Shown: positions 29,590 to 51,537 of the stretch, one piece after another
Layout of the letters: each line of letters begins with the position of its first letter
Position numbering within the stretch: position 1 is the stretch's first letter
Assembly: GCF_000800015.1 (NCBI RefSeq)
Contig: NZ_JUGR01000001.1
Location: forward strand, 496,001 to 560,000
Source of the DNA: Terriglobus sp. TAA 43
GTDB taxonomy: Bacteria > Acidobacteriota > Terriglobia > Terriglobales > Acidobacteriaceae
DNA length: 64,000 bases
Direction: 5' to 3'
The notes under the pieces: generated by a model
The model's database searches: none
Told to the model about the DNA's origin: nothing
What the model saw: the letters and a program-made list of their open reading frames with translations, nothing else
Made by a program: the position numbers and the translations under genes

Positions 29590-29630
29590 AAGACAAGACC
29601 ACCGATCATATTAATCGGTGGTCTTGTCTT
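29590..29630 (-). terminator. Very strong terminator between TonB receptor and esterase genes
   Basis: 17-bp perfect stem AAGACAAGACCACCGAT/ATCGGTGGTCTTGTCTT with a 7-nt loop, 15 bp past the receptor stop. On the minus strand it is followed by CTTTCCTTCT, and the next start codon comes 14 bp later. Confidence 0.88.
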
Positions 29631-29644: not shown

Positions 29645-32600
29645 TTAGAACTCGATACGTGCAGCAAGCTGCAGCGCGCGGATATAAGGAACCGTTGTGT
29701 CACGAACCTTGGTGCCGTAGCTGGACGTGCCAAAGGTGCTGATAACGGCATTTGACTGGCTGTAAACGAACCGTGTGTGGTTCGTCACGTTGAAGTAGTC
29801 TGCCTCAAGCACCAGCTTGGTACCTTCATGCCGTCCGGTCGGGATGTCGATCGCCCGGCGAAGGCTCATGTCCAGGTTGTAGTTGCCCGGCTGGAACAGT
29901 CCCGACAGTGGGGCCGAACGCGCCGTCGTGCTGAACATATAGTTCGGCGTGTTCGCCGTGCTCAGGAACGCACTGGAATCCAGATACTGCGTGGTTCCCA
30001 GGTCGGCCGAGGTCTTCGGACGGGTACTGCCCTGAATCTGTCCGTTACCCGAATAGCTTGGGTTCAGGAACGGATAGCAGACGTTCTGCGACGGGTTCGT
30101 GTTGCACGAGTTCATCACAATGGACAGTGGCGCACCAGAGAACGCCTGGAAGATACCCGACAGCTTGAAACCGCCAAACGCCGTACGAGTGAACGCATTG
30201 CCCCCACCCAGCGCGCCGGTGCCAAAGGGTAGATTGTAGGCGCCGGTCACGACGAACTTGTGACGCTGATCGCCCAGCGACAGGCTCTTGTCCAGCGAAC
30301 GCGCGGCATGGAACTTTCCGTCCGATGCGTAGGCTGCCGGAATGTCGTAGCCGGAACGGAAGGTTGCGTTGTTGTCGATCGACTTCGCCCACTGATAGTT
30401 CGTCATGAAGGTGAGGCCGTGTGTCAGACGCTTCGTCATGTACACCTGCAGCGCATGGAAGCGAGTGTTGCCTACGAATCCATATGCGTCGCTGATGCTG
30501 CCATACTGCGCGTAAGGCTTCAGAGCCTGAGCAATGGAGGGGTTCTGCGATCCACCGAAGCTGGCGTACGGTACTGTGACGCCTGCCGTTGCCAGATTTG
30601 CAGCGGTAGCCGTGTTCGCCAATTGTGTTCCCAGTCCCAGGTACTTGGGATCAAGCTGGTTGCTGGCAATGCCGCGACCGTTAAGGCTGTCCGGCTGCAG
30701 GAAGTGTCCCTGCGACCCGACGTAGCTGATGGTCAACGTAGTGCTCGGGCTGATCTCACGCTGCAGGCCGAAGTTCCAGTTCAGGAACTGCGGTGCACGT
30801 CCACCGTAGTACGGGTCAGCGTACGTGGGTGTCTGTGAGGAAGCGGTCGTTGCAGTTGTGTACGACGTACCCAAGCCCGGATCAAGCGTTGGCGGCAAGG
30901 TATAGGTCGGATACGGGTTGTCGATCTTCCAGTATTGCGTTCCCGTCTGGCTGGCGGTCGGTTGAACAACCGTGGTGCTTGGGCTCACGCTGTAGCCTTG
31001 CAAACCAGAGCCCTGACGGCTGGTCGCCGAACCACCGTTCGCGTTGCCGTGGGTGTAGATCACACTGAAGCTTCCGCGGAACACCGTTTTGGGATCGGCC
31101 TGGTAGGCAAATCCAACGCGGGGGCCGAAGTTCTTCATGTAGTCATGCACGGGGCTGCTGCAGTTGCAGAGCCCATTGCCATAGCCACCGAAAGCGAGCG
31201 CGCCCTTCGATCCCGTGAGCGGATTCGTTGCATTCGGGTCGAAGTAGGCGAAGCGGTTCTTCACTTCGCGATACGTTGGGAAGTAATCCCAACGCAAACC
31301 GTAGTCGAGCGTGAGCTTTGAAGTGACCTTCCAGTTGTCCTGGAAATAGGGCGATTGCGGACGGAAACGACCGCCTGTTTCAGGTACTGAAGACAACGTG
31401 AAACCACCCGAATTGGCCGCTCCCAGCATGTAGCTGGCGTAGCCCTGACCGGAAGTCGAAAGCGCGGTCGTGTTGTTGCTGTAACCCGCTGTCAGCGCAT
31501 TGGAAAACGTAAGCTGAAGCGGATTGACTCCCGTTGCGTTGTTCAGGAAGTTGTACTGCATCCAGGCGATCTGGTAGCCAAAGGTAAACGTGTGGCTTCC
31601 CTTCACCCACTGCAGGTTGTCCAGCAGTACATAACCGTTGGCGACGGGACGATTGCTGGAATAACCAGCCCAGCGGTTGATGTTGGTGTTGCCGCTGAAT
31701 GTGACCGTCGGGAACGAGTCCTGTGCCTGACCTGCGGGAAGTCCCTGGATGCCATTCGCTGCAGCGCCGTAATTACCGCCGATGTCCTGGTTGTAGCCTG
31801 GACCGTCGTAGCGACCAAAACCGTACTTCAACTGGTTCGTGACGTGCGGGGTGATGGCATACGTGTGCTCGAACAGGAACACCTTCGTCTTTGGCGCGAA
31901 CTGCTGCGACGAGATGTACGGCGGTGGCATGCCGTTTGACGTTGAAGAAACCGTCACGGCTGCGGGCGCGGTGGTCGCCTGGCGTCCCCAGGCCAGCACA
32001 ACCGATGCCGCCTGCTTCTGATTGATCGTCCAGTCAACGCGATTTGTGGTGGTCCAGTTGTTGAGGCCAGTCTTGTAGTTGACCAGGTAGTTGTTGTTTA
32101 CGTTGCCGTTGGTCGGCGCTGGCAGATAGGACTGCATGCGCTGCGCCACTGGAGACAGGCGCGAACCCGGAATGATGTTATTGGCAAACGGCGTACGTTG
32201 ATAGGCCTGCGTCGCCTTACCGTTCACGTTGATCGTCACAAGCCTTGTGCTGTCTGGATCGTAGATGCAACCCGCAACGGCCTGCGTAGTGGGGGCAGTG
32301 CCGCAGCTCGCGGGATTCGTGACGAACTCGCCAAAATCACCCTGACGCATGCGAGCGGTGGGGATCGTCTGAAGCTGGAATGGCACCTGGCGCGAGAAGC
32401 GATAGCCTTCGTACCCACCAAAGACAAACAGCTTGTCTTTGATGATGGGCAAACCTGCGAACAAGCCATATTCGTGCTGATGTTCGGTTGGCTTCTGCGC
32501 GCGGCCCGTCACAGGGTTGATTGTCTGCTGGAATCCCCAGGTATCCAGGCCGGTGTCACGGAAGTAGTCGTACACAGCGCCGTGGATGTTGTTGGTACCG

Positions 32601-33394
32601 CGCTTCACCACGTAGTTTTGTACGCCCTGGCCTTCGTAGATTGCCGAATAGCCGACGGTCTGCACCTGGAACTGCTCGATTGCGTCCACGGCCATAGACG
32701 TCCATACAAAGCGCGGGTCGCCTTCACCAGCTACCGAGGTGATGGGCACGCCGTTGATGTAGATCGCCGAAACCGCACCACGGCTACCGCTACCGTTGAC
32801 CGACCCCGCGTTCGTCGTCTGGTTGCCGTTGGTGGTCTGGGAGTTCACGCCCGGCAGGAGAGCCGCGAAGTCGGTCGCACGACGCTGGCCGCCGCCATCC
32901 TGAATCAGCGGCAGCGCAGAGTACTGCTCCTGCTCGATGGTGACACCCAACGTGGCATTGGAGGTTTCGAGGGTCGGCGGCGTGTCGACGACCGTAACCG
33001 ATTCCGTTGTCTCACCGGTGGGCAGTGTCAGATCGACGGAGAACGTCTGCAATGCATTGACGTTCACATTCTCCTGCGTCACGGACTTGAAGCCATCGTG
33101 GGCGACTGTGATCGTGTACTTGCCGGGGTCAAGGGAGAAGCTGTACTCACCCGAACCGCTCGACTTCAGACTCTGCAGCTTGTTTGTTGCGTTGTCCTTG
33201 ATGGTGACTGTCGCATCAGGGATGGCGGCGCCAGTGTTGTCCACGACACGGCCATTGATGGCGCCCTTGCCGGCAAGCTGCGCTCCCGCTGTGAGAGTCA
33301 TGGTGGCCACCAAGGCGAGTGGCGCCGCAATGCGCATTGGCTGCAGAAGACCTGCTCCAAGCGTCATGCGGGATAGTGGGTTGCGAAACGTCAT
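29645..33394 (-). CDS. Oar-like TonB-dependent receptor with carboxypeptidase-regulatory domain
   Basis: 1249 residues. A signal peptide (AAPLALVATMTLTAGAQ) is followed by a CarboxypepD_reg-like domain ('GRVVDNTGAAIPDATVTIKD', 'SGEYSFSLDPGKYTITVAHDGFKS'), a plug domain ('FAALLPGVNSQ', 'AIYINGVPITS', 'AIEQFQVQTVGYSAIYEGQG') and a long beta-barrel that ends 'NVTNHTRFVYSQ...ALQLAARIEF', with the usual C-terminal aromatic. It sits in the outer membrane and imports large substrates with TonB energy. Its place next to the pectin genes suggests import of pectic oligosaccharides. ATG 33394 has AGGAG 7 nt upstream. Confidence 0.93.
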   Translation of the reverse strand: MTFRNPLSRMTLGAGLLQPMRIAAPLALVATMTLTAGAQLAGKGAINGRVVDNTGAAIPDATVTIKDNATNKLQSLKSSGSGEYSFSLDPGKYTITVAHDGFKSVTQENVNVNALQTFSVDLTLPTGETTESVTVVDTPPTLETSNATLGVTIEQEQYSALPLIQDGGGQRRATDFAALLPGVNSQTTNGNQTTNAGSVNGSGSRGAVSAIYINGVPITSVAGEGDPRFVWTSMAVDAIEQFQVQTVGYSAIYEGQGVQNYVVKRGTNNIHGAVYDYFRDTGLDTWGFQQTINPVTGRAQKPTEHQHEYGLFAGLPIIKDKLFVFGGYEGYRFSRQVPFQLQTIPTARMRQGDFGEFVTNPASCGTAPTTQAVAGCIYDPDSTRLVTINVNGKATQAYQRTPFANNIIPGSRLSPVAQRMQSYLPAPTNGNVNNNYLVNYKTGLNNWTTTNRVDWTINQKQAASVVLAWGRQATTAPAAVTVSSTSNGMPPPYISSQQFAPKTKVFLFEHTYAITPHVTNQLKYGFGRYDGPGYNQDIGGNYGAAANGIQGLPAGQAQDSFPTVTFSGNTNINRWAGYSSNRPVANGYVLLDNLQWVKGSHTFTFGYQIAWMQYNFLNNATGVNPLQLTFSNALTAGYSNNTTALSTSGQGYASYMLGAANSGGFTLSSVPETGGRFRPQSPYFQDNWKVTSKLTLDYGLRWDYFPTYREVKNRFAYFDPNATNPLTGSKGALAFGGYGNGLCNCSSPVHDYMKNFGPRVGFAYQADPKTVFRGSFSVIYTHGNANGGSATSRQGSGLQGYSVSPSTTVVQPTASQTGTQYWKIDNPYPTYTLPPTLDPGLGTSYTTATTASSQTPTYADPYYGGRAPQFLNWNFGLQREISPSTTLTISYVGSQGHFLQPDSLNGRGIASNQLDPKYLGLGTQLANTATAANLATAGVTVPYASFGGSQNPSIAQALKPYAQYGSISDAYGFVGNTRFHALQVYMTKRLTHGLTFMTNYQWAKSIDNNATFRSGYDIPAAYASDGKFHAARSLDKSLSLGDQRHKFVVTGAYNLPFGTGALGGGNAFTRTAFGGFKLSGIFQAFSGAPLSIVMNSCNTNPSQNVCYPFLNPSYSGNGQIQGSTRPKTSADLGTTQYLDSSAFLSTANTPNYMFSTTARSAPLSGLFQPGNYNLDMSLRRAIDIPTGRHEGTKLVLEADYFNVTNHTRFVYSQSNAVISTFGTSSYGTKVRDTTVPYIRALQLAARIEF

Positions 33395-33693
33395 TGGGTA
33401 CTCCTGGAGTGGATCGAAAGGTTTTTATTATTACTGCCAGCTAGCTCCCTTTGCATGCTGGTAGAACATAATCTCGGTTTTTAACGAGAACGGGCGAATA
33501 CTAGCGGCCAATGCATAGCGTCGTCAACCAATTTTCACGGTTTTGCAAAATGTCCGAGAAAACAGCGAAACGCTTTGGGACTATTCGGGCAATTTCCCCG
33601 TATTGGCGAATATTTTGCACTCTTGAATCGTTTCGATTTGAATCGAATCACATACCCTTTTTCTTCGCTTTACGGGTGCTCGCAAGGTTGCCC
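33395..33693. promoter_or_regulatory. Promoter region of the TonB receptor gene with CGAAACG palindromes
   Basis: No gene is seen in these 299 bp. AT-rich sequence contains two odd palindromes around CGAAACG: AGCG-AAA-CGCT at 33564-33574, and AATCG-TTT-CGATT at 33626-33638, the latter flanked by a direct repeat of TTGAATCG (33623 and 33638). They resemble, but do not equal, the operator-like sites before GH28, kduD and GH105, and they lie farther (170-230 bp) from the receptor start. Confidence 0.4.
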
Positions 33694-34755
33694 TTACCTG
33701 CGGTGACGCAAGCTGTCGGCCGCGGCCACAGGGTTCCAACCGTCTTCGCCAGCCAAGAGAGCATTAGCAGTAAGGCGCCCTTCTTCTTCCGGAGACAACG
33801 GAGGATAGGACACGATCCGATGTTCTCCGTTCACTCCGGGGCCGTGCGAAAGGTATTCGCGATAGGTGCTGGTCTTCAGTTTGCCGCCCCACTCTGACCA
33901 ACCATCGGCGGCTAACATCGGTTGAATCTCCGTGTCGTAGAAGAGCACCGTCGAGTACGTGCGCCACGGCCTTCCCAGCACAAGCTTTTCGGCGGGTTGC
34001 GAATCGCCGGTGATGCGGCAATGCAGGAAGTAGTATCCCGAATCTTCTTCAGGGAACTGACGGCTCTGCGCCGTGAACATCACATTGCTATTGTGCCTCG
34101 CGTGCAGTTCGCAGTGATCGAAGACAGCCTTCGCGTCGCCAAAGATGAAGTCCACGTGGCCTTCGATATAGCAGTTGCGGAAGTATTGCCTTGATGCCTG
34201 GCATGCCGCGCGTCCCGGAGAAGGTGGGCTCCCGTCCTTCGGCAGATTGTCGTGACACGTACGGCTATTAGCGTAGAGTGTGTCCTGCGCCGCAATCAGT
34301 CGCACGTTGTCCAGCACGGCGCGATCACTGCTCATCAACAGCGCGACGGCCTGCGAGCCCTCCTCGGTTCGCGTGTGCTCCAGCTCCCAGGTGTTCTCGA
34401 TGGTCAGGTTCTCTGCCATGAACCCATCTGCGTCGACACTGACACTACCGCTCTTTCCTGTGCCGCCTGCGCTCTTCGCAGAATCATTCCAGCTCAACAC
34501 GACATCCTGTGGCTGCTTCCCGGTGCCGATCAAATGGATGTTTGGCGTGCTGATATGAATCTTCTCGCGATAGGTGCCCGGAGCGATGCGAATCTCTTCG
34601 CCATCGGTGGGCGCATGATCGATCGCCTCCTGCAGCGTATGGAAGTCTGACTTCCCATCACGCGCTACGGTGACATGTTTCAACGACTGCGCAGGGCAGG
34701 TCGTCACGCAAGTAAGAGCAGCAAGCAAAGCAAGAGGAATTCGGCGCACGGTCAA
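33694..34755 (-). CDS. Secreted pectin methylesterase (CE8)
   Basis: 353 residues with a signal peptide (ALLAALTCVTTCPAQ). Right-handed beta-helix with the pectinesterase signatures: 'AIDHAPTDGEEIRIAPGTYREKI', 'GSQAVALLMSSDRAVLDNVRL' region, 'AAQDTLYANS' (first catalytic Asp), 'GHVDFIFGDAKAVF' (nucleophilic Asp), 'VLGRPWRTYSTVLFYD' (Arg) and 'GWSEWGG'. It removes methyl esters from homogalacturonan so that GH28 and lyases can act. Last gene of the GH28-acetylesterase-CE8 run, 27-28 bp from its neighbour and in the same direction. A Cys-rich insert between the two catalytic motifs is longer than usual. Confidence 0.94.
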   Translation of the reverse strand: MTVRRIPLALLAALTCVTTCPAQSLKHVTVARDGKSDFHTLQEAIDHAPTDGEEIRIAPGTYREKIHISTPNIHLIGTGKQPQDVVLSWNDSAKSAGGTGKSGSVSVDADGFMAENLTIENTWELEHTRTEEGSQAVALLMSSDRAVLDNVRLIAAQDTLYANSRTCHDNLPKDGSPPSPGRAACQASRQYFRNCYIEGHVDFIFGDAKAVFDHCELHARHNSNVMFTAQSRQFPEEDSGYYFLHCRITGDSQPAEKLVLGRPWRTYSTVLFYDTEIQPMLAADGWSEWGGKLKTSTYREYLSHGPGVNGEHRIVSYPPLSPEEEGRLTANALLAGEDGWNPVAAADSLRHRR

Positions 34756-34782: not shown

Positions 34783-36291
34783 TTAGTGCCCGTCGGTGGG
34801 AGCAGCCTGCAACACGGCCAGCGCGCCGTCTGGAAGTCCATTGACATTGGGTCCCAGTTCCACCTGTACGCGGATTACATTGTCGGCAACCATGCGCCCA
34901 AAGATAGCCTTACCTTTGTCATTCAGGTGTGTGCGATCGGGCTTGGCGGCGCCTGCATTTTCCGCCTTCTCATCTGGATGACCAACCATGTCAAAGGTAT
35001 CGGCCTGCTGCTGCGTGATGCCACTGAGATACTTTTGCGACACGCTGAACAAATCAACGACCGTCACCTTCTCCTCGGCACCCACTTTACGAACGGAAGC
35101 CGCATAGTCTTCCAGACCATCCTTCACCAGTGCGCCATCCTTGTAGTTGCGACGAGACAGGGGTGTCACTAAAACAGGAATCGCACCCATCGCGCGAACA
35201 TCGTGAATGAAGCGACGCAGATTCTCCGCGTAGAGTCCGTCTGCATCCGCATGACGTTTCGGATCGGGTTTCTGATCGTTGTGGCCGAACTGGATGAAGT
35301 AGTAGTTCCCTTTCTCGTCCAGTGCTTTTTGCCACAGGCCCTCGTCGATATAGCTCTTCGTGCTGCGACCATTCATGGCCACATCAACGCACGAGACGTT
35401 GGAGGTTAGTGTGGCGCAGAATCCAGGCCCCCAGCCGCCTTCTGTAGCAACCGTGGAGTCACCCGCAAGAACAATCTTGAACGGTGCCTGCTGGATCACA
35501 CGCATGGCAAGCTGCCCTTCTGCAGGTAGGGTTGCGGCCTGTGCAAGCACAAACTTCTTCAATGCGGGCACGGCGCTTCCAAGATCCATTGCGACCATTC
35601 GACCGAAGACATAGCTCCCCTGCCAGTTCAGGTGTGTCTTGTCAGCGATCGTTCTTCCCTGTCCGTCTTTTTTCGTGATCCCAAGCTTGGTGCCGGCAAC
35701 CTCGCCGATGCTGTCCAGATACGCAATGCTTTCGCTCTGCAGATCAATCAATGCCACATGCATGTTGGCAGCGACCTGTTTCATCACTGCTGCGTGCTTC
35801 AGAAGATCGCTATGGATCTTTCCGTCCGCTTGAAAGTAGCGGCGTGTTAACGGCGTCACCAGTACCGGCTTGATGCCGTGGTTTCGCGCCTCGGTCACAA
35901 ACTTTCGTAGGTTCTGCTCGTATACAGCGATTGGAACCTGACGATCGTTATGTTCAGCCGATTCCATGTCGTTGTGGCCGAACTGAATCAACATGTAATC
36001 CGGCTTCGTGGCGAGCGCGCGATCCCACAGCCCAAGTTCGCGATACGTCTTGGTGCTTGCACCGCCCTTGGCCATGTTGAGGCAATCGACCTGCGGAGAC
36101 AGATTCGCGCAGAAGCCACGGCCATATCCCGCATTGTCCGTCTGCGTTGAGTCTCCGATCAGATCAATACGCACAGAAGTTCCTGCCTTACGTTGCGCAG
36201 GATTATTGCCGACGTGCGCTTCCTGTCCGAACGCACTCATGGTGCTTGCGACGAGAAGCGCGACAGAAAATGAAACCTTATGCCAAGACAT
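34783..36291 (-). CDS. Tandem SGNH/GDSL acetylesterase (rhamnogalacturonan acetylesterase-like), secreted
   Basis: About 502 residues from ATG 36291, giving a clean signal peptide (FSVALLVASTMSAFGQ). Two homologous SGNH domains lie in one chain. Copy 1 has IDLIGDSTQ, 'GGASTKTY', 'LIQFGHNDME' and 'DKTHLNWQG'; copy 2 has 'IVLAGDSTVA', 'NGRSTKSYIDEGLW', 'FIQFGHNDQK' and 'DRTHLNDKG'. Each therefore retains the block I Ser, block III Asn and block V Asp/His. They would deacetylate the rhamnogalacturonan backbone. The start lies 7 bp after the GH28 stop, indicating an operon. The two copies are clearly diverged, so they may differ in acetyl position preference. Confidence 0.92.
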   Translation of the reverse strand: MSWHKVSFSVALLVASTMSAFGQEAHVGNNPAQRKAGTSVRIDLIGDSTQTDNAGYGRGFCANLSPQVDCLNMAKGGASTKTYRELGLWDRALATKPDYMLIQFGHNDMESAEHNDRQVPIAVYEQNLRKFVTEARNHGIKPVLVTPLTRRYFQADGKIHSDLLKHAAVMKQVAANMHVALIDLQSESIAYLDSIGEVAGTKLGITKKDGQGRTIADKTHLNWQGSYVFGRMVAMDLGSAVPALKKFVLAQAATLPAEGQLAMRVIQQAPFKIVLAGDSTVATEGGWGPGFCATLTSNVSCVDVAMNGRSTKSYIDEGLWQKALDEKGNYYFIQFGHNDQKPDPKRHADADGLYAENLRRFIHDVRAMGAIPVLVTPLSRRNYKDGALVKDGLEDYAASVRKVGAEEKVTVVDLFSVSQKYLSGITQQQADTFDMVGHPDEKAENAGAAKPDRTHLNDKGKAIFGRMVADNVIRVQVELGPNVNGLPDGALAVLQAAPTDGH

Positions 36292-36298
36292 GGTTGTG

Positions 36299-37714
36299 TT
36301 AATCCTCATACGGAACAAACTTGCCATCGCAAGAAAGAGTGGGCTTCACTGCAGGCGGCGTGGCTGGGTTGCTCGTTACGCCCTCGCCTGAGAAGCTAAT
36401 ATTCGCGCCCTTCGGTCCGTAAGTGAAGGCAGCAAACCGAGCCCGCATCTGCGCAGGCTGAATGCCGCGCACTTCCACGCCGTTCAGCGTGACTTCACTG
36501 ATGTGGTCTTTGTTCAGTCCTGCGACCTGCACGATACCCGGAGTGATACTAAGCACATCTTCGATGTGGATGCCCTTGTAATCGGGTGTCATATCGCCTT
36601 TCAGGCCGGTGTCTTCAATGCCATCGGTTGTTTGTCCGGTGTAGAACGGAGAAATGGAAATCGGCATCGCGACATTACGCATGCACACGTTGCGGTAGCT
36701 CACACCGCGCACGATTCCGCCGCGCTGCACGTTGCTCTTAATGCGAATGCCACTGGTCGTGTGGTCCAACGTCAGCGTGTCTACGTAGATGTCCGATTCA
36801 TCGCGGGCCTCGGACCCCATCGACATACCGTGACCGCTGTAGAAGTGGTTATCTAACACGCTCATGTGGTGCACGCTGGCCTTGATTGCGATGTTGTCGT
36901 CGCCGTTATCAATCCAGCTTTTGGCTACGGTCACGTTCTCTGAGGAACCAGGATCAATGCCGTCGGTATTGCGTGCGTCTGTACCGCGCACGGTTGGTGT
37001 CAGCAGATGAACGCCCCACGCTGTGAAGCCGTTGGTATTGCTCACCGTCACATGAAAGTTGGGCGAGTTGTGGAGGCGAATGCGATACAGGATCAATCCA
37101 TCCGCGTGGTTCGCGACGATCAGCCTTGGCGCGGAGTATTTCGTGTTCGTCGGTTCCATGGCTCGTGACTGCTGCCACCACGTGAAAGTTTTGCCCAGGA
37201 TCTGTTTGTCGCCGCGTCCATCAATCACACCATCACCCATGACAGCGGCGTTCTTCACGTCGCGCACGTTGATTAACGCGAGGCAGTTCTTCGCCTGTGG
37301 CCCTGTAATGCCGCAGGTATCTGGCGTTGCATCAAAGAGCCGAGGATCCCGCGATGCGTACAGCGTTACGCCTTTATCAATCATCAGTGTCACGCCATTG
37401 CGTAATTCCAGCGGCCCGCTGAGAAAAGCGTTGGAGACGCCATCCGATTTGAGGACCACCGCCTTGCCTTCGCCGCAATGATCCATGGCCTTCTGGATAC
37501 GCTCGGAGTCCAGTTTCTTTTCGTCCTCCTCCCCCAATGCGTTGCTGGTCGCATGGAGTTGCGCCTTCAACACCGTGCATGCGGGAGGGATCACCGGCTC
37601 AATGACGTGCCGGGTGTCCTGTGCGTGGAGGAGAAGCGGTGGAGCAAACAGAAGTACTGCGACTGCATAGCGTTTCAAGCGGATTCCAGTCTGGTGCGGA
37701 TTCGAGCGATGCAC
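36299..37714 (-). CDS. Secreted polygalacturonase-type glycoside hydrolase family 28
   Basis: 471 residues; signal peptide 'RLKRYAVAVLLFAPPLLLHAQ'. Right-handed beta-helix with all four GH28 signatures in order: NTDGID, 'DNGDDNIAIK' (catalytic aspartates), 'YSGHGMSMGS' and 'SGIRIKSN'. It hydrolyses alpha-1,4 galacturonan, or galacturonate-rhamnose linkages, with inversion. First gene of an apparent operon with the acetylesterase and pectin methylesterase. Its promoter region carries a perfect CGAAACGTTTCG palindrome 41 bp before the ATG. Confidence 0.95.
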   Translation of the reverse strand: MHRSNPHQTGIRLKRYAVAVLLFAPPLLLHAQDTRHVIEPVIPPACTVLKAQLHATSNALGEEDEKKLDSERIQKAMDHCGEGKAVVLKSDGVSNAFLSGPLELRNGVTLMIDKGVTLYASRDPRLFDATPDTCGITGPQAKNCLALINVRDVKNAAVMGDGVIDGRGDKQILGKTFTWWQQSRAMEPTNTKYSAPRLIVANHADGLILYRIRLHNSPNFHVTVSNTNGFTAWGVHLLTPTVRGTDARNTDGIDPGSSENVTVAKSWIDNGDDNIAIKASVHHMSVLDNHFYSGHGMSMGSEARDESDIYVDTLTLDHTTSGIRIKSNVQRGGIVRGVSYRNVCMRNVAMPISISPFYTGQTTDGIEDTGLKGDMTPDYKGIHIEDVLSITPGIVQVAGLNKDHISEVTLNGVEVRGIQPAQMRARFAAFTYGPKGANISFSGEGVTSNPATPPAVKPTLSCDGKFVPYED

Positions 37715-37755
37715 CGCAACTATAGGAGCCCATATTCACTGTCGTCAACGAATAT

Positions 37756-37767
37756 CGAAACGTTTCG
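37756..37767. promoter_or_regulatory. LacI-type operator candidate before GH28
   Basis: Perfect 12-bp palindrome CGAAACGTTTCG within GAATATCGAAACGTTTCGT, 41 bp upstream of the GH28 start. Central CG and AAACGTTT match the general LacI/GalR operator pattern. Ten bases (ATCGAAACGT) recur in inverse orientation before kduD. Confidence 0.6.
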
Positions 37768-37786
37768 TATTCTGACGTGGCGCGGC

Positions 37787-38608
37787 CTAATGCGAGGTGA
37801 ACACCAGCAAATTCCCGTCCGGATCACGAGCCAGAACGCGATGATGCTCTACAGTGGCCGGAAGGCCTTGTTTTTGTAGTTTTCGCAACGTTTCTTTCTC
37901 TTTGACGCCGGTGAAGACCAGCACAAGCTTCTCCGGCGAACTCTGAGACAGAAAAGCGAATGAGCCGTCCTTGCCACCGGCAGGAGACGTGACGTGCGCG
38001 CCCTCGCGCACGCCTCCGTCCACGAAGTTCATTTTCTGGATGAAATACTCCGCCGTAGCTGCTGGATCCTTCATGGGAACCACTGCCGCAGCGAGATGTG
38101 TTGCGATGCGGTCCCCGTCCAGGTGCTGGCCAAAATCGTTGCTGTGTTTCGAACCCGGAAGGTATTCCGTGATCTCTTCGGTTTGCCCTTCCGGCCCCTT
38201 CCACGCCAGCAGCATGTTCCCTGCCCCAGCCTTGCGTACAGGCGGCGCAACCACACCATTCGCGGTGTAAATCGGATACAGACCCGGCAGATTCACCGCC
38301 TCAAAGCACACATGCAGAAACGCCGCCGTCTGCCCTGCGTCTGCTGGATATAGTTCCAGATACTGGCGGTCATTCAGCTTGATGAACGCTTCTGTAACCT
38401 TGCCGTCCTTGGTAATTTCAAACGGTTGCGCGAAGCCAAGTTTCTCGTAGAACGCGCGGGATGCCTGCAAGTCGGCCACACGAATCGCCACATGCGCAAT
38501 GCCGACGATCGCGGGCTTCTGCGCTGCACTGGGCGACTCTACTTGCGCATGGAGTGCCGGCAGCAGCATCGCGGACCAAAGGGCCAAGCCAGCAATGTTC
38601 TTGTTCAT
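37787..38608 (-). CDS. Secreted VOC (glyoxalase/bleomycin-resistance fold) protein
   Basis: About 273 residues from ATG 38608, which overlaps the kduD stop as ATGA (kduD precedes it in the same direction); the longer upstream frame only repeats kduD's opposite frame. A signal peptide (GLALWSAMLLPALHAQ) is followed by two beta-alpha-beta-beta-beta modules: 'GIAHVAIRVADLQASRAFYEKLGF' at the first and 'ATHLAAAVVPMKDPAATAEYFIQKM' at the second, with metal-ligand-like His and Glu ('EITEYLPGSKH', 'FTSH'). Role unknown. Tight coupling to kduD suggests a job in uronate handling, but its exported location differs from KduD's cytosolic one. Confidence 0.8.
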   Translation of the reverse strand: MNKNIAGLALWSAMLLPALHAQVESPSAAQKPAIVGIAHVAIRVADLQASRAFYEKLGFAQPFEITKDGKVTEAFIKLNDRQYLELYPADAGQTAAFLHVCFEAVNLPGLYPIYTANGVVAPPVRKAGAGNMLLAWKGPEGQTEEITEYLPGSKHSNDFGQHLDGDRIATHLAAAVVPMKDPAATAEYFIQKMNFVDGGVREGAHVTSPAGGKDGSFAFLSQSSPEKLVLVFTGVKEKETLRKLQKQGLPATVEHHRVLARDPDGNLLVFTSH

Positions 38609-39375
38609 CGCGCCATCCATCCCCCGTCCACGGTCAGGACGGTTCCGGTGACGTAGTCGCTTGCTGCCGACGACAGAAAGAGCGTCGCACCCACCAGATC
38701 CGAAGGCTGCCCCCAGCGACCAGCAGGAATGCGTTCCAGGATCTGCCGATTGCGGGTTTCGTCGGCTTGCAATGCTTCGGTATTCGTCGTTGCGAAATAG
38801 CCAGGAGCGATCGCATTCACCTGAATTTGCTTCACAGCCCATTCGTTCGCCAATGCCTTGGTCAACTGAGCCACACCGCCCTTCGACGCAGCATAGGCAG
38901 GCACGCGGATGCCGCCCTGAAAGCTCAAGAGCGACGCGATGTTCACAATCTTGCCCGGTGCGTTGCGGCTGATCAGATCGCGACCCACGAGCTGCGAAAG
39001 CTGGAACACGCTCGTCAGGTTCACCTGCAACACGCGCTGCCAGTCCTCCAGCAGCACGCTCTCCGCTTCATTACGATGGATCATTCCAGCGTTATTGATG
39101 AGGATGTCAACGCGGCCGAACTTCGCCTTCGCCTGGTCAAAGAGGGTGCGTGCGCCTTCTGTTTCGGCCAGATCTGCCTGAAACGCGGCGGCAAAACCGC
39201 CAATGGCAGCCGCAGTTTCATCTGCTGGACGGCGGTTTCCATGCACTGCGACGGACGCACCGGCCTGGGCAAGGCCCACGGCAATGGCAGCACCAAGACC
39301 GCTGGCCGCGCCAGTCACCAGAGCGACCTTTCCATCCAACCGAAACAGATCGAGCGAAGAAGCTGAAGTCGACAT
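38605..39375 (-). CDS. kduD: 2-dehydro-3-deoxy-D-gluconate 5-dehydrogenase (KduD, SDR family)
   Basis: 256 residues. Classical short-chain dehydrogenase: cofactor motif TGAASGLG, 'NNAG', catalytic Ser in 'IASLLSFQGG', YxxxK in 'YAASKGG', and the KduD-like 'IHRNEAESV' and 'TNTEALQADETRN' segments. It reduces 5-keto-4-deoxyuronate-derived 2,5-diketo-3-deoxygluconate to KDG in pectin breakdown. Cytosolic, with no signal peptide. It is followed by the VOC gene with a 4-bp overlap. An ACGTTTCGAT half-palindrome lies 43 bp before the start. Confidence 0.92.
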   Translation of the reverse strand: MSTSASSLDLFRLDGKVALVTGAASGLGAAIAVGLAQAGASVAVHGNRRPADETAAAIGGFAAAFQADLAETEGARTLFDQAKAKFGRVDILINNAGMIHRNEAESVLLEDWQRVLQVNLTSVFQLSQLVGRDLISRNAPGKIVNIASLLSFQGGIRVPAYAASKGGVAQLTKALANEWAVKQIQVNAIAPGYFATTNTEALQADETRNRQILERIPAGRWGQPSDLVGATLFLSSAASDYVTGTVLTVDGGWMAR

Positions 39376-39418
39376 ATCTGCATGTCACTTTATGCGCCGT
39401 ATGCCACGATCTGCAAAT

Positions 39419-39428
39419 ACGTTTCGAT
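39419..39428. promoter_or_regulatory. LacI-type operator candidate before kduD
   Basis: ACGTTTCGAT, the exact reverse complement of the left ten bases of the GH28 site (ATCGAAACGT), 43 bp from the kduD ATG. The other half is degenerate. Confidence 0.5.
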
Positions 39429-39439
39429 GAAGGGCGGAG

Positions 39440-39934
39440 TTATCGGACACTTCCCTCAGACGAGATCAGGTAGAACGTTACTTTATCGGCGGTTGTTCGC
39501 TTGTGGAGCGTCCCACGAGGGATCACCAGAACATCGCCTTTCTTCAACTCGACACGAGTGGCTCCGTCCGCCGATGGTGCAAGCCATTCTCCTGGCTTCA
39601 CATTACGGCCATCTTTCGGAGTTCCGCCGAGTTCATAAACCGTGGAGCCTTCCAACACCTGGAGGATATGGTCGCGACCTTCGTGCCACTCAAATTCTTT
39701 CGCAGCCTTCTTCTCTTCCACGGTCATCGCCATGGTCAGTCCAGCAGATCCTTTAAACAGGTTGTCGTTGCCGGGACTGGCATTCAGAGTCTTCTTGGAT
39801 GCCTCCAGTTTCTCGTTCGAGAACACCTGAAACGGCTCGGGGTGCGGGATAGCCTGCGCCTGTGTCTCCATCAAAGGAAGAGCCAATGCGGTCAGCGATG
39901 CAGACGAAAGAAAACTGCGGCGAGTCGATGTCAT
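39440..39934 (-). CDS. Tat-exported cupin-domain protein
   Basis: 164 residues from ATG 39934. It begins with a twin-arginine signal (STRRSFLSSASLTALALPL), then a single cupin barrel: motif 1-like 'EWHEGRDHILQVLEGSTVYELGG' and motif 2-like 'LKKGDVLVIPRGTLHKRT'. His, Glu and a second His are placed to bind one metal. Small exported cupins can be isomerases, dioxygenases or sugar binders. With kduD behind it and kduI divergent in front of it, a role on pectin-derived uronates is likely but unproven. No clear ribosome-binding site. Confidence 0.8.
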   Translation of the reverse strand: MTSTRRSFLSSASLTALALPLMETQAQAIPHPEPFQVFSNEKLEASKKTLNASPGNDNLFKGSAGLTMAMTVEEKKAAKEFEWHEGRDHILQVLEGSTVYELGGTPKDGRNVKPGEWLAPSADGATRVELKKGDVLVIPRGTLHKRTTADKVTFYLISSEGSVR

Positions 39935-40007
39935 AGCCATGGTGTGTGAAGCATACATGTGCGTTTGCACTTGCGGCTACATCATTGCGGCTCGCTATAC
40001 TGCACAC

Positions 40008-40838
40008 ATGAAGCTGCTTCAAATGTCCGATCCGGTGCGCTTTCCCCGCATGACCACTGCAGAATTGCGCGAGACCTTCCTGCTGGAAAACCTCTTCACC
40101 GCAGGTGCAATCGATCTGGTCTACGTTGATCTGGACCGCACCGTTATTGGCTCTGCTGTTCCTACGGCGACTCCGCTTCATCTTGAAACACAACCAGAAT
40201 TGCGCGCAGAGTTCTTCTGCGAGCGTCGCGAACTTGGTGTGCTGAATGTCGGCGGCACTGGCACCATCACCGTGGATGGCGAGCGTTATCCCATGGAGAA
40301 ACTTAGCTGCCTCTACGTCGGGCGCGGCAGCAAGGTTGTCACGTTTGACAGTGAAAACGCTGATGCACCCGCAGCGTTTTACCTGCTGAGCTATCCCGCA
40401 CACGCGGACTATCCTACAAAATCTGTTGCATTCAAAGACCTGCAAGGATTGCAGCTTGGCACCGTGGAAACGTGCAATAAGCGCACGATTTACAAAGCTA
40501 TTTATCGCGACGGCATTCGTTCCTGTCAGCTTGTGATGGGTTTCACGTTGCTGGATGCAGGATCAAACCTGAACACCATGCCTCCGCACACGCACATGCG
40601 CCGCTCTGAGGTGTACATGTACTTCGACGTCGATCCTGCGCACCGCGTGTTGCATCTGATGGGGCCGCCGCAGGAGACCCGCCATCTCGTCGTTGCGAAT
40701 CGCGAAGTCGCCGTTTCACCAGGATGGAGCATCCATGCGGGCGCGGGCACCAGCGCCTACGGTTTCTGCTGGGGCATGGGCGGCGAGAATCAAGCCTACG
40801 ACGACATGGACGGTGTCAGCATCGCCGACCTGAAGTAA
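40008..40838 (+). CDS. kduI: 5-dehydro-4-deoxy-D-glucuronate isomerase (KduI)
   Basis: 276 residues from ATG 40008; the open frame runs back to 39939 but that part (Cys-rich) is not family-like and overlaps the divergent promoter. Tandem cupin with KduI hallmarks: 'DPVRFPRMTTAELRETFLL', 'FFCERRELGVLNVGGTGTI', zinc ligands in 'MPPHTHMRRSEVYMYF' and 'WSIHAGAGTSAYGFCWGMGGEN'. It isomerises 5-keto-4-deoxyuronate to 2,5-diketo-3-deoxygluconate, the substrate of KduD. Cytosolic. Divergent from the cupin gene, with a GTGC-GTTT-GCAC inverted repeat (39959-39970) between the two. Confidence 0.94.
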   Translation: MKLLQMSDPVRFPRMTTAELRETFLLENLFTAGAIDLVYVDLDRTVIGSAVPTATPLHLETQPELRAEFFCERRELGVLNVGGTGTITVDGERYPMEKLSCLYVGRGSKVVTFDSENADAPAAFYLLSYPAHADYPTKSVAFKDLQGLQLGTVETCNKRTIYKAIYRDGIRSCQLVMGFTLLDAGSNLNTMPPHTHMRRSEVYMYFDVDPAHRVLHLMGPPQETRHLVVANREVAVSPGWSIHAGAGTSAYGFCWGMGGENQAYDDMDGVSIADLK

Positions 40839-40854
40839 GCACACTAACGAATCT

Positions 40855-40891
40855 GAAGACGGTCCGCACCTACTTCGTGCGGGCCGTCTTC
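40855..40891. terminator. Bidirectional terminator between kduI and the GH105 gene
   Basis: 15-bp stem GAAGACGGTCCGCAC (40855-40869)/GTGCGGGCCGTCTTC (40877-40891), one T-G pair, 7-nt loop. It overlaps the last codons of the GH105 gene. Confidence 0.85.
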
Positions 40892-42117
40892 TTTGCGAGT
40901 TGTTGTATCTCGCTCGTAGCCAGAAGATACGCGCCGACGCCCTTCGCGTCGTTGTCACCTACGGCTTCATGAACGTAGTAGTTGTAATCGCCTGCGCGAT
41001 AGGGCTTGCCGCCCAAGCCGCTGACCTTCACAGTTCCATGCAGCGTGACCTTGCCGCTGCTGTCCGTGGTGATGAATTCCTTCTCGATGCCGAGCCAGCC
41101 CTTGACTGCATTCGCGCGATATTTATCTGGCAGATAACCCAGTCGCACGCCTTTTGCTAATGCGTATGTGAACATCGCGCTTGCAGATGCTTCACGGAAA
41201 TTGCCAGGCTGTCCGCCTTTGTCCATCACATCCCACCATGTGCCGCTCTTTGCATCCTGATACTTCGCAGCGCCCTCGGCAACATGTTGCAACACGGCAA
41301 TCAACTTCGCGCGTTGTGGATGGTTCGCGGGAAACGACGGAATGGTATCGACCAGCGCCATTGCATACCAACCCAATGCGCGCGCCCACACTTCCTGTGA
41401 AAGCCCCGTCGTCTTATCCGCCCACGGCTGCTCTTTGCTCGCATCCCATCCGTGGCGCAGCAATCCTGTCTTTGGATCGCGCATGTGTTCGTCCATCAGC
41501 AGAAGCTGCTTGGCAATATCGTCGAACTCGTCTGCAACATGAAAAGTCTTCGCATACCCCGCGCGAAATGGCTCACCCATGTAAGCGCCGTCCAGCCACA
41601 TCTGATTCGGATAGATCTGTTTGTGCCAGTAGCCACCCGCGGAATTGCGCGGCATCGTCTGAAACTGATTGAAAATCAGCTTCGCTGCTTTCGCATATCG
41701 TTGATCGTTGGTTTTCTCATACACCGCGAGTACAGCGCGACCGGGCTCCAAATTATCGAGCGTATGTAGTTCCGGGTTGAAAGCCTTGCCAAGCTCTGTC
41801 GTCACATTGCCGTCTTTGTCCACCCAGCGGTCGACTGTTGCGCGCACATACGCAAATGCATTCGCATCATCTGCTGCTCGTGACTGCGCTGTCATACCGT
41901 CCAGCAATGTGCCAACTTCATAAGCCCATGCGCCCGGCCGAGCCTGAGTGGTGATGACACCTGCGGACCAATTCTGTTCCACGGTGCGTGCCATCGCTGC
42001 GCCTTGCGTGGCAGCTTTTTGAGCGACTGAATCCAAAGCCTGTCCATGCACTGGCGCAACCGCCGATAACACTACCGCAGCCAAAGCTAACCGAACACCG
42101 ATGACTCGAACCGACAT
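40870..42117 (-). CDS. Secreted GH105 unsaturated rhamnogalacturonyl/glucuronyl hydrolase (YteR-like)
   Basis: 415 residues; signal peptide 'VRLALAAVVLSAVAPVHG'. (alpha/alpha)6 barrel with the GH105 signature 'NQMWLDGAYMGEPFRAGYAK', whose Asp is the catalytic acid, plus 'HGWDASKEQPWADKTTGLSQEVWARALGWYAMALVD' region and 'GQPGNFREASASAMFTYALAKGVRLGY' region, here given by position ~215-330. It hydrates and releases the terminal delta-4,5-unsaturated uronic acid from lyase products, yielding 5-keto-4-deoxyuronate for KduI and KduD. A lyase is needed to make its substrate and none is in this window. Operator-like palindrome 46 bp upstream. Confidence 0.93.
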   Translation of the reverse strand: MSVRVIGVRLALAAVVLSAVAPVHGQALDSVAQKAATQGAAMARTVEQNWSAGVITTQARPGAWAYEVGTLLDGMTAQSRAADDANAFAYVRATVDRWVDKDGNVTTELGKAFNPELHTLDNLEPGRAVLAVYEKTNDQRYAKAAKLIFNQFQTMPRNSAGGYWHKQIYPNQMWLDGAYMGEPFRAGYAKTFHVADEFDDIAKQLLLMDEHMRDPKTGLLRHGWDASKEQPWADKTTGLSQEVWARALGWYAMALVDTIPSFPANHPQRAKLIAVLQHVAEGAAKYQDAKSGTWWDVMDKGGQPGNFREASASAMFTYALAKGVRLGYLPDKYRANAVKGWLGIEKEFITTDSSGKVTLHGTVKVSGLGGKPYRAGDYNYYVHEAVGDNDAKGVGAYLLATSEIQQLAKKTARTK

Positions 42118-42163
42118 GGAACCTCTTCTGGGATAGCGTTTTCACCCGTTGTCTTGCGTGGAG

Positions 42164-42175
42164 AAAAACGTTTTT
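42164..42175. promoter_or_regulatory. LacI-type operator candidate before the GH105 gene
   Basis: Perfect 12-bp palindrome AAAAACGTTTTT followed by AGTATTC, 46 bp from the GH105 start. It shares AAACGTTT and the trailing GTATTC with the GH28 site. Confidence 0.55.
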
Positions 42176-42281
42176 AGTATTCCTACGCCCAAATACTACG
42201 GCATGGAATACACGTCCGTCAGATTCGGCATTCCGCAATCTTCCACGAAGGGGCACGTCGCCTGATATTCTTCCCCTTGAG

Positions 42282-42548
42282 ATGACTACCGTTGACGTGC
42301 TCTACCACTACGAGATCCAACCGACCGAACGCTCCGTTCTGGCCATTGCGCGCATTCGCGAGGTTTACGGCATCCGCCGTGTCACTCTGGACGAACGCGC
42401 CAAGACGATTGGACTTGAGTACGACGCAACACGTCTGACCGAACCCGCCGTGCGCCAGCTTGTGCGCCGCGCTGGTGTCATGCTGGTCGATCCGCCATCG
42501 CCGGAAGAGCCACTGGAAATTGACGATCCGGCAGTCGTTCAGGCTTAA
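42282..42548 (+). CDS. Small HMA-like (ferredoxin-fold) hypothetical protein
   Basis: 88 residues, no signal. The secondary-structure pattern beta-alpha-beta-beta-alpha-beta ('DVLYHYEIQ', 'ERSVLAIARIREVYGIRRVTL', 'TIGLEYDATRL', 'EPAVRQLVRRAGVMLV') matches the heavy-metal-associated fold, but the CxxC metal motif is absent, so copper binding is unlikely. The first module 'IARIREVYGIRRVTLD' resembles an HMA helix and strand. Function unknown. A strong terminator follows, so it is transcribed alone. Confidence 0.75.
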   Translation: MTTVDVLYHYEIQPTERSVLAIARIREVYGIRRVTLDERAKTIGLEYDATRLTEPAVRQLVRRAGVMLVDPPSPEEPLEIDDPAVVQA

Positions 42549-42564
42549 AAACATGCAAGAAACA

Positions 42565-47603: not shown

Positions 47604-47917
47604 ATGGAGTTAGGAAGCCTAACGAACACTTCGTCGTCATATCGACGGATCTCGTAGGTTCCCAGATCAGGGTCGGCAATGTTCTCACTCTTGCCGTTCG
47701 TTACGTCGAATCGCCATGCGTGATACGGGCATACGACCATACAACCGTCCAGATGCCCTGCGGATAGAGGTGCACCCTGATGCGGGCAGTGGTTGTCGAA
47801 TGCAACCAGCTTTCCTTCGATCTCTGTAACGCAGATTTGCAGTCCATTGCGACCCGCGAAACTCTTCATTTTTCCTGCGTCTGGCAGGTCTTTCGCATCG
47901 CATAACTTCGCAATCAT
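47600..47917 (-). CDS. Rieske-type [2Fe-2S] ferredoxin
   Basis: 105 residues, the typical single-domain length. Cluster ligands are '[10 protein letters not shown]' (Cys, His) and '[14 protein letters not shown]' (Cys, His). It carries electrons to an oxygenase or acts as a small-subunit partner, in the cytosol. Start '[15 protein letters not shown]'. Convergent with the FAD oxidoreductase; the two stop codons share the palindrome CTAG. Confidence 0.93.
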
Positions 47918-48005
47918 TCCAAAACCTTTTCATGGCGGAACTTGACATCGTCCGCACGGCATCCTAACGTGACATTCGCAAAGCACTTATTGCATCGAGG
48001 ACCGT

Positions 48006-48150: not shown

Positions 48151-49431
48151 CTGTCACAAGAACATTCATCCAATGCGTCGTCGCTGCATTCCCTAGGCGT
48201 TCTCTGCGGTCTGACTGCAGGTGTCTGGCTGGGAGCCGCAGAAGCGCCCACAAAACTCGTTACCGCGGGCTTCTCCCCATTTGCCATCTCGCTCTGCATG
48301 GTGGCAGGTGTCTTTACTGCACGCTGGACATTCCCCACGCTGCTCAAAGGCACAGGTTACGTTTTTCGCGATCTGATGGCGCGTAAGCACCTGCTGGTGT
48401 GGGCAATCCTTGCGGGCGCCTTGTGGGCCGTTGCGAATACGCTGACGGTGTTCGCCATTCGTGATGTGGGCCTGGCCATTGCCTTCCCCATGTGGAACAC
48501 CAACTCCCTCGTAGGCCTCTTCTGGGGACGTATTCTCTTTCGCGAACTACAAGGTGCGGACGGCAAGACAACAACCAAGGTCGTCCTGGGAACCACCTGC
48601 ATCATCATCGCTGCGATTATGCTCGGCTTCAGCACTCTGCATGGAGCCACCTCCACCGGACACAATGCGCTGGGAGGCGTTCTCGCCGCTATCGGAGCCA
48701 GCCTGATGTGGGGCACCATGTACGTGCCTTACCGCAAGGCATATCTCAGCGGCATGAATCCGCTGTCGTTCGTCACAGCTTTCACCGTGGGTGAACTGTT
48801 CACGATGTTCGCCCTTACATGGACACTTGATGGCGGGCGGCATTCTTCCGCGTTCACACTCGTGCAGAGCGGTCCGCTGTTGTTCTGGCTCTTCCTCGGC
48901 GGATTTGTCTGGGTTATCGGAGATCTCTTCCAGCAGTTCGCAACGAAGTACCTCGGCATTGGCCGTGGCATTCCTCTCTCCAACACGAACCAGCTTTGGG
49001 GGTTGGCATGGGGTGCGCTCGTGTTCGGCGAACTCCGCAATGCCGACGGCCAACACAAAGCTCTGGTCATTGCCGGATCGCTCATCATGATCCTCGGCGC
49101 CCTGTTTATCAGCACCGCCAAAGCTTCCATCGGGGAGCACACGTCGCGTAACAAGGCCCTCGAACGTGAGTGCGACCGCTATGGCTTGGACTATCGCGAA
49201 ACCCTTCTGGCTCAGGCGGGCGATGAATTCTCAGGACGCGAAGAAAAGCGACGCTGGTGGGATTACCTCATCGTCGGAGTCGCTACCAGCTTCTTCATTT
49301 TTCTCGCTGTGCGCGCTGTCGTACCACCGCTGGAGATGAACTTCCGCTGGATGGCCGTACTTGGTATTGTCCTGGTGGTTAGCCTGATCGCCGCCGGGAT
49401 GCGCCTCCGCCGCGAGACACGCTTTTCCTGA
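48151..49431 (+). CDS. DMT-superfamily (RhaT/GRP-like) transporter with apparent CTG start
   Basis: The first ATG (48298) would remove the first two helices. The frame is open back to TAA 48127 and encodes hydrophobic sequence ('LGVLCGLTAGVWLGAAEAPT', 'FAISLCM'), with no ATG, GTG or TTG before 48298. CTG at 48151, with AGGA some 9 nt upstream, is the best start, giving about 426 residues. Ten helices in two repeats are visible ('FWGRILFREL' and 'LAWGALVFGEL'). A C-terminal charged segment (~300-370) precedes the last two helices. It would take up or export a sugar, cyclitol or related small molecule. The LacI-MIOX-kinase genes next to it suggest inositol or sugar-acid uptake. Confidence 0.8.
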   Translation: MSQEHSSNASSLHSLGVLCGLTAGVWLGAAEAPTKLVTAGFSPFAISLCMVAGVFTARWTFPTLLKGTGYVFRDLMARKHLLVWAILAGALWAVANTLTVFAIRDVGLAIAFPMWNTNSLVGLFWGRILFRELQGADGKTTTKVVLGTTCIIIAAIMLGFSTLHGATSTGHNALGGVLAAIGASLMWGTMYVPYRKAYLSGMNPLSFVTAFTVGELFTMFALTWTLDGGRHSSAFTLVQSGPLLFWLFLGGFVWVIGDLFQQFATKYLGIGRGIPLSNTNQLWGLAWGALVFGELRNADGQHKALVIAGSLIMILGALFISTAKASIGEHTSRNKALERECDRYGLDYRETLLAQAGDEFSGREEKRRWWDYLIVGVATSFFIFLAVRAVVPPLEMNFRWMAVLGIVLVVSLIAAGMRLRRETRFS

Positions 49432-49460
49432 TGTCCCCTGCACCGTAGACTGGATTCACT

Positions 49461-50480: not shown

Positions 50481-50492
50481 GAACTTTTATCC

Positions 50493-50522
50493 TTGCGCAC
50501 CGTCTCATTGACTGGGTATAGT
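50493..50522 (+). promoter_or_regulatory. Candidate promoter of the inositol oxygenase gene
   Basis: TTGCGC (50493-50498) and TATAGT (50517-50522) with an 18-bp spacer, 48 bp before the MIOX ATG. GGAGG follows 6 nt before that ATG. Confidence 0.6.
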
Positions 50523-50569
50523 TACCGCTAACTAAACGCCCGTACGAAAGGCGTAGCTGGAGGGTTGTC

Positions 50570-51436: not shown

Positions 51437-51458
51437 ACCAGCGTCATTCCATCTCCAG

Positions 51459-51480: not shown

Positions 51481-51537
51481 TTTCGTTTGGTACGACCAGC
51501 AACTTGACGTTCTATTTTTGCTTTTGAGGGGAGTACG

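Follow-up and report, generated by a model that had tools for sequence, protein, structure and literature searches.

A predicted LacI-family regulon of pectin-degradation genes in Terriglobus sp. TAA 43

A 64 kb stretch of the genome of Terriglobus sp. TAA 43 (contig NZ_JUGR01000001.1, positions 496,001 to 560,000; here called the window) contains genes for extracellular pectin depolymerization and for the conversion of the resulting uronates inside the cell, and raises the question whether these genes are controlled together and, if so, by which protein. An original prediction had pointed to ACGTTT-centred strings shared by three of them, encoding a GH28 polygalacturonase, KduD and a GH105-type hydrolase, and had proposed a LacI-type regulator encoded away from its sites. 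From comparison with related genomes we think it quite probable that the sites are operators of a single LacI-family regulator, LacI1, but that this regulator is a local one whose gene belongs to the pectin cluster.

All three strings are present as described, with CGAAACGTTTCG at 37756-37767 before the GH28 gene, ACGTTTCGAT at 39419-39428 before kduD and AAAAACGTTTTT at 42164-42175 before the GH105 gene, and ACGTTTCGAT is indeed the exact reverse complement of ATCGAAACGT within the GH28 string. The octamer AAACGTTT occurs three times in the 64 kb, with 0.78 expected and 2 of 100 shuffles reaching three, and is on its own only mildly unusual in the window; nor is the 12-mer CGAAACGTTTCG rare, as there are four copies in the genome against two of a reversed control. 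Sequence statistics within the genome therefore cannot decide the matter, and comparison between genomes does. The genome itself (G000) was compared with two close congeners that keep the pectin cluster (G031 and G064), among which GH28 identity is 91-94 %, so that the three are not independent witnesses, and with six further congeners (G076, G061, G060, G065, G067 and G069) whose GH28 orthologues have 69-77 % protein identity. An operator matrix was built from 13 training sites of five congeners (G076, G061, G060, G065 and G067), leaving the Terriglobus sp. TAA 43 genome out; the training sites were picked by a match of at least 9 of 12 letters to the palindrome of the original prediction and are thus not independent of that consensus. 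The third AAACGTTT octamer of the window (54732-54739) adjoins nadA, lies outside the top 25 matrix matches and appears to be unrelated, and was rejected as a fourth operator.

Predicted operators of the GH28 operon and the outer-membrane gene

The main operator of the GH28 operon (37753-37770; ATACGAAACGTTTCGATA on the minus strand) is the first-ranked match in the window to the matrix made from other species, with a chance count of 0.035 expected in Markov-model sequence. It precedes the gene for a GH28 polygalacturonase (36299-37714, minus strand; Pfam), a predicted target that heads a row whose other members encode a GDSL esterase (34783-36327) and a pectinesterase (33694-34755). The original prediction had made conservation of the palindromes in relatives a test, and here they are conserved: an operator is found before GH28 in nine of ten congeneric orthologues (those of G000, G031, G064, G076, G061, G060, G065, G067 and G069), with its centre 13 bp (seven genomes) or 14 bp (G076 and G065) upstream of the -35 hexamer of a TTGAC-18-TATAGT promoter. 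In the window this promoter is TTGACG-18-TATAGT (37719-37748, minus strand), the best promoter-like match of the region. A similar promoter is present in all ten orthologues scanned, including that of the tenth congener, G066, in whose GH28 promoter region the matrix found no operator (best score 1.7). Alignments with G031 and G064 contain the identical block ACGTCAGAATACGAAACGTTTCGATA between varying flanks, and the GH28 palindromes of the more distant congeners mostly resemble TATTGAAACGTTTYGATT.

The form of the palindrome and its conservation thus bear out the proposal of LacI-type operators, and the GH28 site is a clear one, at which binding is predicted. According to a survey of LacI-family local sugar regulons (Ravcheev et al., 2014, PMC4052901), their operators are even palindromes of 16-22 nt with a central CG that mostly stand 30-140 bp ahead of the start codon, and the GH28 site agrees with this description in each respect. 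Its distance to the coding sequence had been put at 41 bp, counted from an open reading frame (ORF) with a GTG start at 37714. Judged from the conserved promoter, transcription would begin downstream of that GTG. For this reason a TTG at about 37678 (region 37676-37714, minus strand), behind which the sequence resembles a signal peptide, is the likelier start, which would make the distance about 77 bp. A GTATTC had also been noted behind both the GH28 and the GH105 strings; it is kept at GH28, but its offsets differ between the two, and since the GH105 copy is not conserved in G031 and G064 it was dropped as a shared element. A weak match (37881-37898, score 7), 128 bp upstream of the main site and inside a preceding glyoxalase-like gene, is the possible distal half of a paired operator; congeners have a second GH28 site 122-128 bp upstream, in differing gene contexts and with scores from 7 to 21.6.

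Three further candidate sites, missed by the original prediction, lie before a gene (29645-33394, minus strand) for an outer-membrane protein with CarboxypepD_reg and OMP_b-brl_4 domains (Pfam), which we take by inference to be of the TonB type and to be a target. The distal site (33621-33638) is the second-best match in the 64 kb to the held-out matrix, with 0.04 expected by chance in Markov-model sequence, and has counterparts in G031, G064, G076, G061, G060 and G065. The second, operator-like site (33563-33580, score 11.0) has its centre 44 bp upstream of the -35 hexamer of a promoter match, TTGACG-18-TAGTAT (33498-33527, minus strand), and its footprint is kept in G031 and was not found in G064. 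The third (33412-33429, score 15.6) lies within the 5' untranslated region, its distance to the ATG being about 26 bp; it scores 13.5 in G031 and 19.8 in G064 and is confined to this group of three, not being seen in G076, G061, G060 or G065, where the outer-membrane orthologues have pairs of sites 65-69 bp apart. The third and second sites rank third and sixth in the window. At 26, 177 and 235 bp from the ATG, all three lie outside the usual LacI range of 30-140 bp. Operator sites are absent from the 74 % identical orthologue of G066 (best matrix score 5.9).

LacI1 and its possible mode of action

The proposed regulator, LacI1 (26995-28071, minus strand), has a LacI helix-turn-helix domain (PF00356, 64.2 bits) and a periplasmic-binding-type sensor domain (PF13377, 108.2 bits; Pfam Peripla_BP). 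Its gene and the outer-membrane gene share a strand, and its start lies 1.6 kb past the end of the latter. A 19-pair terminator-like hairpin lies directly 3' of the outer-membrane gene (29590-29630, minus strand), and the downstream esterase and LacI1 may therefore have a promoter of their own. Among 300 genomes of the family, 19 of them of the genus, LacI1 orthologues of at least 77 % identity were found in ten congeners and in one member of another genus (G155). The helix region VSLSTVSGVLNEK is near-invariant, varying at few places across these 11 orthologues, and the hinge ASNLARR is kept in all of them; the leucine of such a hinge reads the central CG, a role known from PurR. The idea of a remote regulator finds no support in gene order, as LacI1 belongs to this co-directional cluster in each of the three close species and stands beside pectin-type genes (for outer-membrane proteins, pectinesterase, GH28, GH105 or acetyl esterase) in ten of the 11 LacI1 genomes. 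The exception is G063, where LacI1 has near it only a 23 % identical outer-membrane homologue about 3 kb away and an alpha-L-rhamnosidase.

The operators largely go with LacI1. A strong one is found in or beside the LacI1 cluster in nine of the 11 genomes, seven of these having it at GH28 and the outer-membrane gene. The remaining two are G155, with operators at an outer-membrane gene (26.6) and at a GH28 gene next to LacI1 (21.9), and G062, with one before the tagaturonate epimerase gene uxaE (19.0) in the order uxaE-pectinesterase-GH105-LacI1. Conversely, no LacI1 orthologue was found in G066, from which the GH28 and outer-membrane operators are absent too. The density of operator-like sites is 1.88 per Mb in the ten congeners with LacI1 and 0.84 in the nine without (P=0.0017), against 1.44 and 1.41 for the reversed control (P=0.84), a comparison in which G067 and G069 were entered as lacking LacI1, genome sizes were rounded and the genomes without LacI1 are less complete on average.

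Several findings weigh against the assignment to LacI1, and those from kduD and from the genome as a whole, given below, are to be added to them. In a matrix scan, G063 and G073 have LacI1 and no strong site nearby, and G067 and G069 carry the site without LacI1 having been found in their assemblies, which are of 410 and 720 contigs. Ranks 4, 5 and 7 of the matrix in the window fall to sites elsewhere, ahead of the kduD site at rank 8, and sites upstream of a -35 hexamer are atypical for steric repression. Finally, no 12-mer with at least nine matches occurs in the 200 bp before LacI1 in seven genomes, so that no operator directly precedes the gene there. LacI1 in these genomes hence differs from most of the local LacI regulators described in PMC4052901, which are autoregulated, and the GH28 operator differs from those regulons in sitting upstream of the -35 hexamer; even palindromes, the central CG and carbohydrate targets are common to both.

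From the positions and conservation of the sites, their co-occurrence with LacI1 and the gene content, we infer binding, looping, a ligand and a sign of regulation as follows. A LacI1 dimer would read ATYGAAACG|NTTYRAT-like palindromes with a central CG, and the several sites per promoter suggest that it could bind spaced pairs with looping or cooperativity, the spacing being 122-128 bp at GH28 and 58-69 bp, or about 210 bp across the promoter, at the outer-membrane gene. In this genome LacI1 would control the outer-membrane gene and the row of GH28, GDSL esterase and pectinesterase, kduD being a probable and GH105 a possible further target. Outside the window a rhamnogalacturonase-like gene and a second pectinesterase would be added and, in relatives, uxaE. 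Joint control of extracellular depolymerization and uronate conversion, as originally proposed, finds support in the operators that stand before GH28 and before the outer-membrane gene, as well as in those that relatives have before uxaE, rhamnogalacturonase and pectinesterase genes. The likely ligand would be a pectin-derived uronate or oligogalacturonate. Most LacI regulators repress, and repression relieved by that ligand would be the default here as well.

The sites had been said to sit just over the promoters, which is not so: the GH28 site is centred 13 bp above the -35 hexamer and the kduD site abuts one. Since the operator of GH28 is placed above the -35 hexamer, it could serve repression as well as activation. 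LacI1 could possibly be an activator, or a dual regulator in the manner of CcpA or Cra, that recruits or stabilizes polymerase from above the -35 hexamer and represses from sites over or below the promoter. The distances from operator centre to -35 hexamer would suit this, for they run in steps of about one helical turn: 3-4 bp at kduD, 13-14 bp in the nine genomes at GH28 and, for the proximal outer-membrane site, 22-24 bp (four genomes) or 44 bp (two). The sites at uxaE in G065 and at rhamnogalacturonase in G061 overlap a promoter-like match or lie just below it, which fits as well. These promoters are few and were recognized from sequence alone, however, G064 is without the proximal outer-membrane site, and the outer-membrane sites that flank the promoter on both sides in G000, G031, G064 and G155 also fit repression by looping. 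In a study of Caldicellulosiruptor bescii, moreover, each of the 12 LacI and DeoR regulators has its sites in the 5' untranslated region or over promoter elements, and all 12 were judged to be repressors (PMC8579813). We regard an activating or dual LacI1 as a tentative proposal, and repression as the working assumption. The locus also prompts the question whether a LacI protein can act from a position upstream of the -35 hexamer.

CcpA represses or activates according to the position of its site. The Bacillus protein (1zvv) is the nearest solved relative of LacI1 by sequence and has the same domain order, but LacI1 is not itself CcpA, since its score with the CcpA model is 173.5 bits, where the cut-off is 442.35, and its gene belongs to the pectin cluster. 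In enterobacteria, KdgR, a single repressor of the IclR family, couples pectinases with kduD and kduI; it differs from LacI1 in protein family and operator, and the likeness is one of convergent logic only. For C. bescii, the part of the report available names UxaR, PecR, HemR, PecR2 and KdgR as regulators of pectin and galacturonate use (PMC8579813). Control of pectin depolymerization together with uronate catabolism is common to that system and the present one, the difference being that C. bescii has several local regulators (UxaR of the DeoR, PecR of the AraC and KdgR of the IclR family) and Terriglobus would have one of the LacI family. A search of open-licence papers gave no description of LacI operators for pectin use in soil acidobacteria, and in the portion of the text of PMC4052901 at hand the terms Acidobacteria and pectin occur 0 times. 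The system is of the ordinary kind of LacI-family local carbohydrate regulon, newly predicted for Terriglobus pectin genes, and it provides, for the use of pectin by soil acidobacteria, a regulator, an operator and a list of genes that can be put to the test.

kduD and GH105

The kduD site (39412-39429; CATCGAAACGTATTTGCA on the minus strand) abuts the -35 hexamer of a promoter-like sequence, TTGCAG-18-TAAAGT (39387-39416, minus strand), that was recognized by sequence, is similar in G031 and G064 and is not among the promoter-scan matches of the window. The gene (38605-39375, minus strand), a probable target, encodes a protein whose best match is NCBIfam kduD, 2-dehydro-3-deoxy-D-gluconate 5-dehydrogenase, at 337.6 bits just under the cut-off of 338.85. 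The least certain member of the set is the GH105 site (42161-42178; ACTAAAAACGTTTTTCTC on the minus strand), which lies before the gene for a GH88/GH105-type unsaturated uronyl hydrolase (40870-42117, minus strand; Pfam Glyco_hydro_88), a possible target for which the promoter scan found no convincing promoter. In a second, smoother version of the matrix, used for these two genes, the kduD site scores 10.0 and the GH105 site 5.3. Their membership, as originally proposed, thus survives in a weaker form, with low matrix scores (about 10 and about 5) and footprints in the three closest species only: the kduD site lies in a 19 bp block, ATCGAAACGTATTTGCAGA, and the GH105 site in a 17 bp block, CTAAAAACGTTTTTCTC, each identical across these species with diverging flanks.

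It is possible that both genes stand outside the regulon, their ACGTTT strings being chance occurrences or other promoter elements, which would leave GH28 and the outer-membrane gene as the only targets in the window; we give this a real if minor share of belief. The matrix scores speak for it, and the kduD site is confined to three of 12 orthologues in the genus, those inside the pectin cluster. Beyond the genus, the 180 bp before kduD score below 8 in 30 of 31 family relatives; in Edaphobacter modestus (L007) a string scoring 11.6, without the central CG, lies 57 bp before the gene. The kduD site, absent from the other nine genus orthologues, is accordingly rejected as an ancestral feature, a conclusion that a 12-letter comparison alone could not give, since the kduD site of Terriglobus sp. 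TAA 43 itself matches only 9 of the 12 letters of the palindrome. For GH105 the site is weak and found in three of 13 homologues, and as three other homologues reach 5.2 with unrelated strings, the matrix gives it no support. Against exclusion from the regulon stand the two identical blocks between diverging flanks, the fact that the sites are present in just those genomes in which the two genes belong to the pectin cluster and, for GH105, an operator-like string scoring 14.7 at the possible start of the G065 gene (L167:1477-1494). The simplest reading of this pattern is that kduD and GH105 gained their operators upon joining the pectin cluster, although a part-chance origin of both sites stays open. 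It suggests how intracellular genes may join a regulon of extracellular enzymes when they move beside it. A combined scheme, in which LacI1 would be a position-dependent dual regulator, mainly activating, recruiting polymerase from the whole-turn-spaced sites (kduD at about 4 bp, GH28 at 13-14 bp, the outer-membrane gene at 22-24 or 44 bp) and repressing from the uxaE, rhamnogalacturonase and 5' untranslated region sites, and in which the regulon grew by new kduD and GH105 operators as these genes entered the cluster in one sub-clade, seems to us doubtful as a whole.

Two other features were seen near these genes. A string like CATACGAAAC...CGTCAA (on the other strand TTGACG...GTTTCGTATG) recurs about 85-135 bp before kduD in loci of Edaphobacter and Granulicella (L007, L010, L014, L022, L024, L025 and others); it is apparently the promoter of a divergent gene and may be the site of another regulator. 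Divergent from GH105 is a small ORF (42283-42549, plus strand; MTTVDVLYHYE...), and the region around its start seems to be kept in G031 and G064.

Other LacI proteins and sites elsewhere in the genome

The window encodes a second LacI protein, LacI2 (49461-50480, plus strand), in a row (48298-52509) with a sugar transporter, a myo-inositol oxygenase and a PfkB kinase that is probably an inositol/glucuronate locus. Several LacI proteins share AAACGTTT-type sites, and a first look gave 14-17 candidate LacI-type genes in this genome, so that LacI2 or another paralogue encoded elsewhere might bind the operators instead of LacI1. Such a regulator would also accommodate the non-pectin genes that follow some of the genome-wide sites, the two LacI1 genomes without a strong site nearby, and a weak match (47917-47934, score 11.7), 372 bp ahead of the gene for the sugar transporter that belongs to the LacI2 row. 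The recognition helix of LacI2 is different, however, a 67 % identical LacI2 orthologue is present in G066, where GH28 lacks the operator, and it is LacI1, not LacI2, that lies in the cluster and largely tracks the operator. LacI2 was on these grounds rejected as the binder. The cluster position of LacI1, its co-occurrence with the operator and its near-invariant helix, together with the LacI2 orthologue in operator-less G066, make it the better candidate, and a remote regulator appears unlikely.

The genome was also searched with the pattern TYRAAACGTTTYRA, allowing one mismatch. It occurs 13 times, against 15 for the reversed pattern, and over-representation was dropped as evidence; a frequency equal to chance had been named as grounds for refusing the operators, and the count does equal that of the control, yet the locations differ. 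Eight of the 13 sites lie strictly upstream of a called gene, against none of the 15 control sites (Fisher P=0.0004), the ORF calls behind this placement being mechanical; five sites (L239, L244, L245, L249 and L250) inside a called ORF were not counted as upstream, and at L239 and L249 the ORF or its start looks mis-called. Position and conservation of the sites, not their number, carry the case. In addition to the two predicted targets in the window, GH28 and the outer-membrane gene, sites are found with genes for a rhamnogalacturonase-like protein, a pectinesterase, two carboxylesterases and a further outer-membrane protein, but also before genes for a sigma-54 activator, gvpL/F and a MocA-type oxidoreductase; the remaining ones are at a gene without a Pfam match (one) and in or near other genes (two).

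Recurrence in other genomes, judged by tblastx at 1e-30, is similarly divided. In the close G064, seven of the 11 sites outside the cluster recur at the corresponding gene, pectin-related or not, and in the more distant G061 two of the 11 do, one at the rhamnogalacturonase gene and one at that for the pectinesterase. Of the 14 sites that G065 has outside the cluster, none matches a Terriglobus sp. TAA 43 site at an orthologous gene. Taking G065, G064 and G061 together, 13 of 36 outside-cluster sites are strictly upstream of a gene, control sites having been placed for the Terriglobus sp. TAA 43 genome only and the ORF calls being mechanical here too. The uxaE site is present in two genomes, G062 and G065, and in the latter overlaps the start of the ORF. 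Operator strings also lie over the start codon of the second pectinesterase in G000 (L244:1499-1514) and G064 (L315), and these could be a coding coincidence; the start-overlapping strings at this pectinesterase and at GH105 of G065 read M-R/K-N-V. A chance origin of every palindrome, from a promoter background richer in AT, agrees with the genome-wide count and is otherwise very improbable, being contradicted already by conservation at near-fixed spacing in nine of ten GH28 orthologues, as well as by the bias in location and the joint absence of site and regulator from G066.

A perfect CGAAACGTTTCG stands before the gas-vesicle gene gvpL/F (L243) and before the corresponding gene of G064 (L313), with a similar flank in G031 (L198); no link to pectin is apparent. 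The two carboxylesterase genes (L249 and L251, on contigs C2 and C3) are paralogous and have similar upstream regions, with TCGAAACGCTTCGA about 107 bp before the ORF.

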